NCBI GenBank assembly: GCA_040902535.1
Contig: JBBDXD010000028.1
Span: forward strand, 86,326-150,325
From: Dehalococcoidia bacterium
GTDB lineage: Bacteria; Chloroflexota; Dehalococcoidia; DSTF01; JACRBR01
Reading direction: 5' to 3'
DNA: 64,000 bases
The notes beneath the pieces were generated by a model, which saw only the letters and a program-made list of their open reading frames with translations, did not search any database and had not been told where the DNA came from. How positions within the stretch are numbered: the first letter of the stretch is position 1; the number at the start of each line of letters is the position of its first letter. Below, piece after piece: positions 5,844 through 11,321 of the stretch. The position numbers and the translations under genes were made by a program.

Positions 5844-5940
5844 GCGAATCGCGGCCGGATGCCGGAGGTCGCGATCTCCGGCATCCAGCCCGCCTGATAA
5901 AATGCGGCATCCCCATGGCAGGACGTGCGCGGAGGCATTG

Positions 5941-7563
5941 ATGCCCGGACCCGAATCGGAGTTCACGCCGGAAGAACGCGAGATCCTGCAACGTCACTTC
6001 ACCAACGTCGACGAGCCGGTCTTCGCCCTGGTCAACCTGCCCGAAGTCGTGAAGGGCGCGTTGTTCGCGCGCTACTCTCGTTCGCCCAAGTCGCTGCGAC
6101 GGCTGTTTCTCGACGAGTTCTACAAGGACGACGACAGCCAACAGCAAACAGCAAACAGCAAAGAGACGGATGCGACGCTCGGCGTCGGCCGCGCGGAGGA
6201 ACTGTACGAACGCGTGCTCGTCGAATACGGCGAGGATTCCGTCGCGCAGTTGGCGGGCGCGCACATCGCGTTCGAGCACGTGTCGAACGTGCTGACGAAG
6301 GTCATCGAGTGGGGCCGCCTCATGGCGTACCTGGAGCAGTCGACGCGTTACATCCCCTACAACAACGAGCAGGCCGATGGCCGCTGGCGCTATCACGTAC
6401 CGGCGGAGATCGTCGACCGGGCGCTGCGCGCGAGCTTCATCGCGACGATGGATCTGTGCTTCGAGACGTACGCCGCGTGGTTCCCGCGCGTCGAGGAGCG
6501 CCTGCGCGAGCAGTTCCCGCGCGCGGAGTCGGACTCGAAGGCCGCCTATCGCCAGAGCATCCGCGCGAAAGCATGCGATATTCTCCGCGGCCTGCTGCCC
6601 GCCGCCACGACGGCGAACGTCGGCGTGTTCGGCACCGCGCAAGCGTTCGAAGCGTTGCTGCTGCGCCTGCAGGAGCACCCGCTCGCGGAAGCGCGCGAAG
6701 CCGGCGCGCAGGCGCTCGTTGAACTGCGCAAGGTGATCCCGGTCTTCATGCGTCGCATCGACCGCGAGGACCGTGGCGTCGCGTGGTCACGCTACATGCA
6801 CGATACGGCGGCGAACACGCACGCGGAGGTCGCACGCATCGCGTTGCCCCGGCATGCCGAGGCACCGTCGTACGTGCGGCTCACCGAATACGACCCTGAT
6901 GGCGAAACGAAGGTCGTCGCGTCAGCGATCTACCCGCACACGGACGTCAGCGACGAAGAAGCGCTGACCCTCGCGCGGCGCCTGTTGCCCGACGAGCGCG
7001 CGCGACTGCTCCGCACGCACATCGGCGAGCGCACGAACCGCCGTCACAAGCCCGGACGCGCGTTCGAGCGCACCTCCTACCGCTTCGACGTCGTCGTCGA
7101 CTATGGCGCCTTCCGCGACCTGCAACGCCACCGGCTGATGACGCTCGACTGGCAGCCGCTCTCGCCGTACCTCGGCTACGACGTCCCCGAAGAAGCGATC
7201 GCCTGGGGCATCGAAGACGACTGGCGGCGCGTGATGAGCGCGTGCGCTGCGTTGTACGGCGAGATGCGCGACGCCGGGCTCGAGCACGCCTGCCAGTACG
7301 CCGTGCCGATGGCGTATCGCATCCGCTTCTACATGGACATGAACGCGCGCCAGGCGATGCACCTCATCGAGCTGCGCACGTCGCAGCAGGGACACAAGTC
7401 GTATCGATGGGTCGGCCAGGAGATGCTGCGCGAGATCCGCGAGACCGCCGGCCACCACGCCATCGCCGACGCGATGATCTTCGCCGAGCTTGAAGCATCA
7501 GGCGGCCTCGAACGCCTCGCGGCCGAACAGGCGAAGGAGCGCCGGCTCGCCGCGCTGGGATAA
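5941..7563 (+). CDS. Tandem ThyX-fold protein (FAD-dependent thymidylate synthase family)
   Basis: At 540 residues this is about twice the length of ThyX, the FAD-dependent enzyme that methylates dUMP. Two ThyX-like halves are visible. The N-terminal half (about 1-280) holds WGRLMAYLEQSTRY at 124-137, and the C-terminal half (about 300-540) holds RHRLMTLDWQPLS from 396 and the helix NARQAMHLIELRTSQQGHKSYR. Compared with the family signature RHRxxSxNExSxR, the first half keeps the ExSxRY end and the second keeps RHR. Whether it makes dTMP is unknown. ATG 5941 has GGAGG at 5931-5935. Residues near 65-75 come from a CAGCAAA repeat, probably a loop. Confidence 0.8.
   Translation: MPGPESEFTPEEREILQRHFTNVDEPVFALVNLPEVVKGALFARYSRSPKSLRRLFLDEFYKDDDSQQQTANSKETDATLGVGRAEELYERVLVEYGEDSVAQLAGAHIAFEHVSNVLTKVIEWGRLMAYLEQSTRYIPYNNEQADGRWRYHVPAEIVDRALRASFIATMDLCFETYAAWFPRVEERLREQFPRAESDSKAAYRQSIRAKACDILRGLLPAATTANVGVFGTAQAFEALLLRLQEHPLAEAREAGAQALVELRKVIPVFMRRIDREDRGVAWSRYMHDTAANTHAEVARIALPRHAEAPSYVRLTEYDPDGETKVVASAIYPHTDVSDEEALTLARRLLPDERARLLRTHIGERTNRRHKPGRAFERTSYRFDVVVDYGAFRDLQRHRLMTLDWQPLSPYLGYDVPEEAIAWGIEDDWRRVMSACAALYGEMRDAGLEHACQYAVPMAYRIRFYMDMNARQAMHLIELRTSQQGHKSYRWVGQEMLREIRETAGHHAIADAMIFAELEASGGLERLAAEQAKERRLAALG
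6134..6164. repeat. CAGCAAA micro-repeat inside the ThyX-like gene
   Basis: Three near-identical AACAGCA words in tandem encode a Gln/Thr/Asn/Ser-rich insert. The length keeps the frame. The wording matches the AACAGCAAAC-style tracts seen in gaps (e.g. 40,040 and 33,070). Confidence 0.7.
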
Positions 7564-7615
7564 TTGCGGCGTCTCTGAGCGAAGCGAAGAATCCCGTCTT
7601 CGACTCGGTACTTGA

Positions 7616-7707
7616 GCGCGGGCTTTCAGCCCGCGCGGCATAACAGCGCAGGCGTCAGAATCAGATCTCACTTCTACGAACGAGAACGCGGGCTGAAAGC
7701 CCGCGCT
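7616..7707. repeat. Inverted pair of the GCGGGCTTTCAGCCCGC palindrome
   Basis: One copy at 7616-7639 and one in the opposite orientation at 7686-7707 flank about 45 bases of unique sequence. Just upstream, 7575-7592 matches the GAGCGAAGCGAAGAATC motif of the 11.3-kb tandem repeat. Confidence 0.8.
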
Positions 7708-7720
7708 CCTTAAAACCCAA

Positions 7721-7826
7721 ATCCTCTGCGTCTCTGTGCCTCTGCGGTGAACAAGATCGTCACCTCATAACTGGAGCGTCGCAATCTGTACTTGAACCCA
7801 AGCCTCTGCGCCTCTGCGGTGAACCA
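7721..7826. repeat. Two copies of the CTCTGCG...CTCTGCGGTGAAC repeat
   Basis: CCTCTGCGTCTCTGTGCC-type sequence ending TCTGCGGTGAAC occurs at about 7721-7752 and again, shorter, at 7801-7826. Related copies lie at 8711-8740, 8783-8812 and, inverted, at 27,910-27,935. No coding function is seen. Confidence 0.75.
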
Positions 7827-7828
7827 AC

Positions 7829-8641
7829 CTACTGCTCGTTGAGCGGCCGCTCGCTCGTCAGATACGCCCGCATCAGCCGCGACGCGTCGTCTGAGCGCAT
7901 CGTCTCGCTGAAGGAGCGCTGCTCGAGCCGCAGGCCTTCCTCGAGCGGCATCTGCACGCCGTCGATCACGCACTTCTTGATCAGCGCTACGCTCAGGCGC
8001 GGCCGCGACGCCAGTTCGTTCGCGAGCGCCATGGCTTCCGGCAGCACACGGTCCTTGTCGACCGCACGGTGTACCAGTCCGATGCTCGCCGCCGTGTCCG
8101 CATCGACCGTGTTGCCGAGCAGCATTAGCTCGAGCGCTTTCGCCGTGCCGAGCAGGCGCGCCATCCGCTGCGTGCCGCCGGCCCCCGGCAGGATGCCCAC
8201 GCGCACCTCCGGCAGGCCGATCTGGTAACCACGCGCCATGATGCGGAAGTCGCACGCCAGCGTGAACTCGCAGCCGCCGCCCATCGCCGTGCCGTTGATC
8301 GCGGCGATCACCGGCTGCGGCAGCGTCTGCAGCTGGAGCAGGAGCTTGTTGAGCGGGTGCAGGTCGACGTGCCGCGACGGTTCCCGCGGCGCCAGCACCT
8401 GCTCGCGCGTCGTATCGGACGCGCGTGACAGCTCACCGACGTCGTAGTGCGTGATGAAGATGCCATCGACGCCACCGGTGAAGACGATCGCGCGGACCTC
8501 GGCGTCACGCTCGACCGCATCGATGGTCTGCGCCATCTCCAGCACCATCGGGCCGTTCATGAAGTTGCGCGGCGGATTCGTCAACGTGACGACGAGGACG
8601 GGGCCCTCGCGGCGGGTCTGCACGTACTCCATGTCCGGCAT
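7829..8641 (-). CDS. Enoyl-CoA hydratase/isomerase family protein
   Basis: This 270-residue crotonase-fold protein would hydrate or isomerise an acyl-CoA thioester in the cytoplasm. The oxyanion-hole motifs are present: FITHYDVGELS in the first half, and AAINGTAMGGGCEFTLACDFRI with the downstream LPEVRVGILPGAGGTQRMARLLG. The Glu of the LPEVRVG motif, one of the catalytic acids of true hydratases, is kept, while the other position is less clear, so the exact substrate is unknown. ATG 8641 is preceded by GGGAGG. It follows two diiron-type genes on the same strand but is separated from them by a repeat-filled gap. Confidence 0.9.
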   Translation of the reverse strand: MPDMEYVQTRREGPVLVVTLTNPPRNFMNGPMVLEMAQTIDAVERDAEVRAIVFTGGVDGIFITHYDVGELSRASDTTREQVLAPREPSRHVDLHPLNKLLLQLQTLPQPVIAAINGTAMGGGCEFTLACDFRIMARGYQIGLPEVRVGILPGAGGTQRMARLLGTAKALELMLLGNTVDADTAASIGLVHRAVDKDRVLPEAMALANELASRPRLSVALIKKCVIDGVQMPLEEGLRLEQRSFSETMRSDDASRLMRAYLTSERPLNEQ

Positions 8642-8682
8642 CTGTACCTCCCTTGTGCTGGCTCGCATCCTACGCGCAAAGA

Positions 8683-8814
8683 ACGCGGGCTGAAAGCCCG
8701 CGCTCAATTAAGAACAACTCCGCGCCTCTGTGCCTCTGTGGTTTCGTCGACTGTTTGATTGAATGCTCGCGGTTAAAAAGAAGCCCTCTGCGTCTCTGCG
8801 CCTCAGCGGTGTCG
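8683..8814. repeat. Cluster of palindromic and CTCTGCG repeats
   Basis: A GCGGGCTGAAAGCCCGC palindrome at 8683-8704 is followed by two CTCTG-word repeats (8711-8740 and 8783-8812). They fill the gap between the enoyl-CoA hydratase gene and the upstream ferritin-like gene. Confidence 0.75.
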
Positions 8815-8819
8815 TCCCC

Positions 8820-9911
8820 CTACGGTTGTTCGATCACCGACCGCAGCGCGTTCACGATGTGCTCCTCGCGCTTGTACACGGTCGCCGCTTCCAGCGCCTT
8901 CGCGTAGAGCTTGAGCTGCGACTGCCGCAGCTCGCCGAGCTTCGCCTTGCCTTCGGCGACCGTCTCGCCCAGCGCCAGGATCATCGCTTCCCGTAGCGGC
9001 TTGTCGCGGCGCAGGTCCGCCGCCATCATCACTTCGCCGCGGTCGAGCCAGTTCTTCACGTGCGACCGGTGCGACGTGCTGTGGTTCAGGTACACCTTCA
9101 GGTGCTCTGTGCCGTACGCAAGGTGGCGGCGCAAGTCACTCGCCAGCAGGTCGAAGAGCTGACGGTCCGCCTGGGAGCGCGCGAGCTTCTCGCCCCACTC
9201 GCACAGCCCCAGCAGGAACGACGTGCGGATGATGTTCACATAGATCACGAACTCGGTGAACTTGAACGCCGCGTACACCGCGCGGTTGAAGAAGCCCGGC
9301 GTCTGAACGCCAAGCCCGCCGTTGTTCGAGAGCGCGCGCTTGCGGCACGCCTCGACGTGGCGCGCGTGGTCGAACGTTTGCGTCGCCAGGTAGAGCTTCA
9401 CCTCGTGGTAGCCGTACGAAATGTCTTTGAGACGCCCCATCAGCACCTGGTTCGAGTTGTACGCCTGCTCGGAGATGTTCGAGTAGATCTGGTCAAGCGA
9501 CGCCTCGATGTGTTCCGCCAGCGGTTCGATCGTCGACCAGGAGATCTGCGTCGCCGGCTTCCACTGCTCCTTGATCGCCGTCTCATAGAGATCGGCGCAG
9601 TTGTCGGCCCAGACTTCGAACTTGTCGTAGATGGTGTAGGGCGCGGGCAAGCCCATGTCGTCGGCCGGCCAGGAACCGCGCGGCGTGTCGTTGAGGTATG
9701 GCCAGTGATCCGGCACCCATCCGTAGGAATTCGCGTCGGCCATTCGCAGCGTGAAGCCGTCTTCGCCGATCACGGGTTTCGGCGGGCGCTCGGTCGGCAC
9801 CTTCGCCCAGCTCATGTCGAGCGGCGGGATCTGGAACGGCAGTTGCTGCGCGGGCGCGGTCTGCTGCGGCTGCTCCGCCTGTTCGTCTGTCTTGGTCTCG
9901 GCGTCTGCCAT
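8820..9911 (-). CDS. Ferritin-like R2-type protein, metal ligands lost
   Basis: The 363-residue protein is a paralogue of its upstream neighbour: both share the ExxxxQWxxAT(D/Q)I motif, the FR/CRKRAL stretch and the same helix spacing. Aligned without gaps over both metal helices, the four Glu ligands of the neighbour are replaced (Glu to Ala in ISEQA, DEARH to DHARH, VGEGF to IIRTSF, DESRH to DLRRH). Only the two His remain, so a diiron centre seems impossible. It is probably a structural or regulatory partner of the active copy (inference). The N-terminus is Gln/Pro-rich. ATG 9911 is tentative; an in-frame ATG at 9992 is 1 base from the upstream stop. Confidence 0.8.
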   Translation of the reverse strand: MADAETKTDEQAEQPQQTAPAQQLPFQIPPLDMSWAKVPTERPPKPVIGEDGFTLRMADANSYGWVPDHWPYLNDTPRGSWPADDMGLPAPYTIYDKFEVWADNCADLYETAIKEQWKPATQISWSTIEPLAEHIEASLDQIYSNISEQAYNSNQVLMGRLKDISYGYHEVKLYLATQTFDHARHVEACRKRALSNNGGLGVQTPGFFNRAVYAAFKFTEFVIYVNIIRTSFLLGLCEWGEKLARSQADRQLFDLLASDLRRHLAYGTEHLKVYLNHSTSHRSHVKNWLDRGEVMMAADLRRDKPLREAMILALGETVAEGKAKLGELRQSQLKLYAKALEAATVYKREEHIVNALRSVIEQP

Positions 9912-9993
9912 GTCTCGGTGCTCGCTTTCGTGCGGGACAACGCATCGGCCGCGCTCGCGGGCCGATGCCAACAATCGTGTGCGCGTCGCCATC

Positions 9994-11076
9994 CTAGTTC
10001 TTCGGCGGGTCGAGCAGCATCTGCATCATCGGCGCCATGCGCTGGCGCCGATCACCGAGACCGACGACGTCCAGCCGGTGCATGTATTCATTGACCTGCC
10101 GCTTCCGGATCGCCAGCAACTTGCGGTAGCCCTCGTTCAGGTGCGTCTCCGACGTGCCGCCGCCCAGCAAGATGGCCAGCGCTTCCGATGTCGCGCCGCC
10201 GCCGGTGAGCCCGGCCTGCGCGGAACCGGCGCCAAGCTGGCCTTCCATGCGGTCCAGGTATGTGTGGATCTCTTCACGCCGCTCCGGCTGCACGTCCATC
10301 ACGTACTTCATGTGCATGACGCCGAACGCGACGTGCCGGCTCTCGTCCTGCGCGGCGAGGCGGAACATGCGTTTGTCCACTTCGCTTTGGGCGAACAACT
10401 CGCCCATCCGGAACATCGACTGTACGAAACCTTCACCGACGAGGTGCAGCGTTGCCGCCATCTCCGTGAAGTCCTGCGCCGTCAGCAGCCCGATCGCCCC
10501 CGGTCCGGCCGAAAGCAACCCGATGCCATTCGCCAGCGCGCGCTTGCGGAACACGTCCAGGTGGCGCGCTTCGTCCATGATCTGCGATGCGAGGAACAGC
10601 CCGACTTCGAAGTACTCCGCGCTGACGTTTGGCGCGTACTGGCCCGGCACGTCGCCGGCGATGAATTCCACCTGCGTCAGGAACGTGCAGAGCTGCGACA
10701 TCGCCATCTCGATGTCGTCGTCCAGTTCCGGCATCTGGTCCCACGGAATATCCGTCGCCGACGACCACTGGCGCTGCACCGCTTCTTCGTAGAGCAGCAT
10801 CGCTGACTCAGACCACGACGCGGCTTTCGATGGCCACATCTTCTGCGTGCTCTGTGCATCTGCACGCGGGGCGGCGCCGCGCATGCGGCCGGTCTGATTC
10901 GCGGTCGTCGCCGGGATGTCGCCGTACGATTCGGTGGCGATGTCTTCGAGCGTCAGGCCGCGCTTGCCGGGCGCGATGCGCAGCCCGTGCTGGGCGGCCG
11001 GCTTCTCGAGCCACGACAGGTCGAGGTCTTCGCCCGCCGTCTCTTTCCTCAGTTCCGCGATGAGTTCTGGCCGCAT
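9994..11076 (-). CDS. Ferritin-like diiron (R2-type) oxygenase-like protein
   Basis: The 360-residue protein has the full ligand pattern of the ribonucleotide-reductase-R2-like ferritin superfamily: Glu in TQVEF, ExxH in DEARH, Glu in VGEGF and ExxH in DESRHVAFG, on four long helices. This predicts an oxygen-activating diiron site, but its substrate cannot be told from sequence; it is not a canonical R2 (no radical-Tyr context recognised) and is closest in style to the uncharacterised ferritin-like oxidases. ATG 11076 has AGGAGG eight bases upstream. The next gene on the strand is a ligand-less paralogue, and the two probably form one complex. Confidence 0.82.
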   Translation of the reverse strand: MRPELIAELRKETAGEDLDLSWLEKPAAQHGLRIAPGKRGLTLEDIATESYGDIPATTANQTGRMRGAAPRADAQSTQKMWPSKAASWSESAMLLYEEAVQRQWSSATDIPWDQMPELDDDIEMAMSQLCTFLTQVEFIAGDVPGQYAPNVSAEYFEVGLFLASQIMDEARHLDVFRKRALANGIGLLSAGPGAIGLLTAQDFTEMAATLHLVGEGFVQSMFRMGELFAQSEVDKRMFRLAAQDESRHVAFGVMHMKYVMDVQPERREEIHTYLDRMEGQLGAGSAQAGLTGGGATSEALAILLGGGTSETHLNEGYRKLLAIRKRQVNEYMHRLDVVGLGDRRQRMAPMMQMLLDPPKN

Positions 11077-11321
11077 GCCACGTCCTCCTGTCACGCCACC
11101 CTGATCATCGGCGGCTGAGCTTCGTTCCTTAGCACGCGCTAAGCATACGATCTCCGGGCCCGATCGATCCATAAGGCGAGGGGATAATGGGAGAGTCTTT
11201 TGGCCTGTGACAACCCTCACGAGGTGCTGTCCGGCGGGCGTTGCAGTCCCGACGCGAAGGCCAAAGACAAGAGCCGGTGACTGCAGAGCGTGGCCTGCGG
11301 TCACTCAGAGCGTTGTACACC

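Follow-up and report, generated by a model that had tools for sequence, protein, structure and literature searches.

A predicted R2-fold diiron protein of Chloroflexota and its adjacent paralogue without glutamate ligands: candidate subunits of a heteromeric oxygenase

Two adjacent genes of a Dehalococcoidia bacterium, here named A and B, encode a predicted diiron protein and a relative that has no glutamate at any of the four positions where glutamates would bind the metal. The question raised by this locus is what the second protein does: it could be a structural partner of the first, a protein with a role of its own, an enzyme with a changed site, or the product of a decaying gene. We consider it quite probable that A and B are two subunits of a non-haem diiron oxygenase of the R2-like ferritin superfamily, A being the catalytic subunit and B a metal-free structural one.

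The gene pair and its ligand positions

The following features were identified in the window (the whole analysed stretch of 64,000 nucleotides).

11184-11213, minus strand: promoter-like site TTGTCA-18-CATTAT upstream of A (consensus match only)
11084-11089: ribosome-binding site AGGAGG upstream of the ATG of A
9994-11076, minus strand: gene A, predicted 360-aa R2-fold diiron protein, proposed catalytic subunit
10666-10668, minus strand: Glu137 of A, ligand 1
10561-10572, minus strand: Glu169 and His172 of A (DEARH)
10432-10434, minus strand: Glu215 of A, third Glu ligand
10333-10344, minus strand: Glu245 and His248 of A (DESRH)
8820-9911, minus strand: gene B, 363-aa paralogue of A that lacks the four Glu ligands, proposed as the structural subunit
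9462-9464, minus strand: Ala150 of B at the first Glu position
9357-9368, minus strand: His182 of B at the second Glu position and retained His185 (DHARH)
9222-9224, minus strand: Thr230 of B at the third Glu position
9123-9134, minus strand: Leu260 of B at the fourth Glu position and retained His263 (DLRRH)
7829-8707, minus strand: enoyl-CoA hydratase gene downstream of B

The two genes are adjacent on the minus strand, as a preliminary description of this DNA had claimed. An in-frame ATG at 9992 is a possible longer start of B. A terminator-like site was looked for between A and B, and none was found. The proteins are 28% identical over 344 residues (BLASTP, E = 1e-43), and the profiles of the two families align over 340 columns (profile-profile comparison, E = 2e-105). 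By these comparisons A and B are clear paralogues.

The ligand columns pair E137 with A150, E169 with H182, H172 with H185, E215 with T230, E245 with L260, and H248 with H263. All four glutamate changes that had been read by eye (to Ala, to His within DHARH, to Thr and to Leu) are therefore real, with the refinement that both histidine ligands are retained in B of the window. The alignment had been described as ungapped; this is true of the two helix pairs themselves, of 35 and 33 residues, whereas between them B has an insertion of two residues.

Ligand loss, linkage and parallel divergence in Chloroflexota

The family was gathered from 60 relatives and 400 genomes of the phylum, and the loci were fetched and aligned. 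In the resulting collection from Chloroflexota the ligand pattern is bimodal, with 73 full sites against 56 lost ones. All six ligands are present in each of the 73 A-type proteins. The four glutamates are all absent from 52 of the 56 B-type proteins, and the other four B-type proteins have a single one. Fixation of the changes had been proposed as a check; the loss of the glutamates is indeed fixed in relatives, and homologues of the second gene that keep the glutamates, which would have spoken against a dead subunit, were not observed. The pattern is not due to chance: it is seen in all 73 A-type and 56 B-type sequences, and the two types remain separate in a tree from which the ligand columns were left out. 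A sequencing error or a single odd genome is ruled out, the loss being common to all 56 B proteins. Around the lost ligands, several positions are conserved in both families (A/B numbering): W22/W35, W88/W101, RKR 177-179/190-192, D244/D259 and R247/R262.

One could suppose that B is itself catalytic, an altered set of ligands holding a metal or another cofactor. The first histidine is kept in 38 and the second in 49 of the 56 B proteins. As most members keep both, weak metal binding by B is conceivable, a point against the main reading. However, several B proteins have lost the histidines too. The replacements differ between B lineages, with 6, 10, 7 and 8 residue types at the four glutamate positions and no constant set. 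Moreover, in 20 of the 56 B proteins Asp at the third position is combined with Lys at the fourth, a pair that would fit a salt bridge replacing the metal. A catalytic B is improbable on these grounds, and B is better read as a metal-free partner of A.

Nor is B a degrading pseudogene. Its reading frames are intact, and the median dN/dS is 0.16, compared with 0.14 for A. B evolves approximately 1.6 times faster than A; it is under purifying selection and is not decaying.

In the tree constructed without the ligand columns, 30 B rows form one supported clade and 32 A rows another, and the branching within the two clades is largely a mirror image. The outer branches are A-type with full ligands, with the exception of the divergent B from locus L105; the root is by midpoint only. 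The placement of this protein apart from the other B proteins could mean two independent origins of B, but a single B clade is not rejected (p-AU 0.263). The distances among A and among B proteins are strongly correlated (Mantel r = 0.917 for 41 pairs, with none of 9999 permutations as high, shared species history not being corrected for), and where a genome has several pairs, these follow the same correlation.

Co-occurrence of the two genes had been proposed as a check. Of the 56 B genes, 41 have A as their immediate upstream neighbour on the same strand, and the order is A then B in every same-strand adjacent pair (41 of 41). B was never found in a genome without A: each of the 15 B genes that are not beside an intact A has an A elsewhere in its genome. 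These exceptions comprise one B that follows a frameshifted A (L046), 13 genes of a separate unlinked B clade, and one further unlinked gene (L075). Linkage of A and B is therefore strong but not universal. Absence of linkage had been named beforehand as a refuting result; it applies in part, and the 15 exceptions count against a heteromer.

The exceptions and the stand-alone A genes deserve a separate description. At L046 (18-1144, plus strand, contig C87 of genome G014) the A upstream of an intact B is split over two frames, probably because of an assembly frameshift. The unlinked B clade (L054-L067, L072, and L073 at 6026-8041 on the minus strand) has gene C, described below, as its next gene and no adjoining A; any A serving as its partner would lie at another locus of the genome. 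This clade includes a gene of the window's own genome (C10:113502-114515, the L073 locus), which has two A genes (contigs C28 and C6) and two B genes (C28 and C10). Its second A (C6:132445-133515; L088, 5407-6525, plus strand) stands alone and has equivalents in several related genomes. It directly follows histidine biosynthesis-like genes and is next to divergent purine biosynthesis-like genes (names given by eye from the sequence).

Such loci bear on another reading, namely that B has a function of its own outside any complex with A, for example as a lipid-binding or regulatory homodimer encoded in the same operon. A B clade away from any A and next to C, together with A genes that also occur alone, is what this reading would lead one to expect. 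On the other hand, it leaves unaccounted for the invariant order in the adjacent pairs, the confinement of B to genomes with A, the correlated divergence and the mirrored clades. We regard an independent role of B as rather unlikely, and retain the reading of B as the structural subunit of A.

Predicted fold and comparison with known families

Confident AlphaFold2 models of A and B (pLDDT 85 and 91, respectively) are both predicted R2-like helical bundles, with the ligand positions inside matching long helices. The fold matches of A are R2 and R2lox proteins (best E = 2e-4), while B (E = 2e-3 to 2e-2) matches R2 and R2lox, phenol hydroxylase, and methane monooxygenase in both its alpha and beta chains. 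Modest TM-scores (approximately 0.4-0.56 on the query) indicate a shared superfamily rather than close kinship. A has both the four-helix core and the ligand series E, ExxH, E, ExxH of the R2-fold dimetal carboxylate proteins; B has the fold and not the ligands. No family of Pfam or NCBIfam reaches its cut-off for A or B. Among solved structures, the best profile match is the azoxy synthase VlmB (E = 6e-8, profile positions 136-274 only). VlmB is described as a diiron-dependent oxygenase (PMC11705231). Unlike A, it acts in natural-product clusters, where it works with the hydrazine synthase VlmO rather than with a dead paralogue.

In ribonucleotide reductase (RNR) R2 proteins a radical tyrosine lies near the second ligand motif, replaced by Phe in class Ic. 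R2e is a metal-free R2 in which the Glu ligands are lost and the tyrosine becomes DOPA. It might be thought that A is an RNR small subunit and B its Rnr4-like or R2e-like metal-free partner, given the common fold superfamily and a weak score of A with PF00268 (16.2 bits, cut-off 33.6). However, the radical position is Phe in 73 of 73 A proteins. No large RNR subunit is encoded beside the pair, and PF00268 finds no R2 in the window's genome, which does encode the RNR large-chain family. The absence of the radical tyrosine and of an R2 in the genome by PF00268 leads us to reject an RNR small subunit; its probability is negligible. An R2e-like radical protein is likewise rejected for B, where the position is Phe, Leu, Trp or Cys, and never Tyr.

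As a parallel of function, the comparison of the pair with yeast Rnr2/Rnr4 in the preliminary description is fair. Rnr4 has lost three iron-coordinating residues and stabilises Rnr2 in an R2-fold heterodimer (PMC2704937). In both systems one R2-fold partner has lost iron-coordinating residues; the difference is that B has lost all four glutamates, and that A is not an R2.

The best NCBIfam match of A is R2lox, with 38.8 bits, far below the cut-off of 194. R2lox proteins have a Mn/Fe cofactor and an ether cross-link between Val and Tyr. A could accordingly be a divergent R2lox with such a cofactor, and B its accessory. The weak profile match, the fold matches, and Glu as the first ligand agree with this, as does a report that an R2lox from Geobacillus oxidises alkanes (PMC10867098). 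But the position of the cross-link Val, located by spacing from the ligands, is Ala in 72 of 73 A proteins, and the other position is never Tyr. Furthermore, A is paired with a dead paralogue, and we know of no metal-free partner of R2lox. Neither the score nor the cross-link residues place A in this family, which argues against a canonical R2lox, and we consider R2lox membership highly improbable.

The bacterial multicomponent monooxygenases (BMM: methane monooxygenase, phenol and toluene hydroxylases) form alpha2beta2 complexes with an effector and a reductase. Several features are shared with A and B. Firstly, a Glu4His2 diiron R2-fold subunit is combined with a metal-free paralogue, for A and B as judged from sequence. 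Secondly, the genes are adjacent, and a small third protein of about 147 aa is encoded in many relatives. Finally, the predicted fold of B resembles both the beta and alpha chains of methane monooxygenase. However, A has only 360 aa, whereas the alpha chains that it is compared with, those among the fold matches, have roughly 490-515. No BMM-type reductase gene was seen next to A and B, and neither protein matches the BMM hydroxylase family of Pfam at E up to 1. The similarity of A to B is also far greater than that of either to BMM chains.

PaaA and PaaC are catalytic and structural subunits of one fold that form a heterodimer, PaaA alone being insoluble (PMC4498308). The division of labour is the same as in the putative A-B complex. 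Unlike that system, no PaaB or PaaE homologue is recognised beside A and B, and neither protein matches the PaaA/PaaC family of Pfam at E up to 1. Being bacterial oxygenases, BMM alpha/beta and PaaA/PaaC are closer parallels than Rnr2/Rnr4. By analogy, the best reading is that A and B would work like either of these pairs but arose by a separate duplication; by the family tests they are members of neither family. With some reservation, we favour a further lineage of active-plus-dead R2-fold oxygenases, with its own duplication within the family, its own component C, and ferredoxin-linked ancestors. If the duplication is indeed separate, the active-plus-dead solution would have arisen repeatedly.

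Outside Chloroflexota, plasmid records contain two weak matches to A (25-27% identity) and no match to B. A pattern scan of GTDB genomes, which reaches close relatives only, found six loci, all in Chloroflexota. In open-licence papers, searched by title and abstract, we found none describing the A-B pair. Pairs of an active and a dead R2-fold subunit are already known in principle; for the A/B family, and for the duplication within it, no description appears to exist in the literature searched.

Neighbouring genes and the proposed complex

In many relatives B is directly followed by gene C, whose product has about 147 aa; 24 members were aligned. It matches no Pfam family. The alignment of C with SCP2 proteins of relatives scores 24.6 with hhalign (probability 11%), the best of 20 column-shuffled controls scoring 18.3. 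This weak signal is only suggestive, and we do not claim that C is an SCP2 protein. At three loci (L103, L104, L151) A, C and a 4Fe-4S ferredoxin gene stand in a row without B. This order may preserve the state before B arose; it points to an oxygenase and to the origin of B by duplication.

No ferredoxin, reductase or C gene is found beside the A-B operon of the window, which counts against a heteromeric oxygenase; the only C gene of this genome is at another locus (C10:113037), beside the unlinked B. The enoyl-CoA hydratase gene downstream of B has the same place in two relatives from the same family (L043, L049), and is a weak candidate for a pathway neighbour. Other neighbours in relatives encode luciferase-like monooxygenases, cytochrome P450, short-chain dehydrogenases and CoA-transferase. 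At L105 (5093-9845, plus strand) divergent A, B and C are followed by a thiolase-like gene and a gene for a ChsH2-type OB-fold protein, an arrangement that we take to be as in steroid side-chain breakdown. B of this locus may have lost its ligands independently.

From these observations we infer metal binding by A, an A-B complex, oxygenase chemistry, a role of C and a type of substrate. A would hold a dimetal site formed by E137, E169, H172, E215, E245 and H248, take electrons from a ferredoxin, activate O2, and oxidise an organic substrate, at a weak guess from the neighbouring genes probably a hydrophobic or CoA-linked one. B would be a duplicate of A without the metal site, retained as a structural or regulatory partner in an AB or A2B2 complex. 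Where C follows B, it may help to bind the substrate or couple the components. The heteromeric enzyme with a dead scaffold subunit, as initially proposed, is in this form supported by the comparison of sequences.

If A and B do form a heteromeric oxygenase, they represent an undescribed enzyme family of aerobic Chloroflexota, a little-known group whose genomes often encode several copies of it. They would also offer a natural system for asking what diiron oxygenases gain from a metal-free twin. Since living relatives show A alone (with C and ferredoxin), linked A and B, and unlinked B, the effect of gaining B is open to experiment.

Elsewhere in the window (5902-7563, plus strand), there is a gene encoding a ThyX-type protein of 553 aa. 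This is approximately double the normal size, and the Pfam Thy1 match falls mainly in the second half of the protein.
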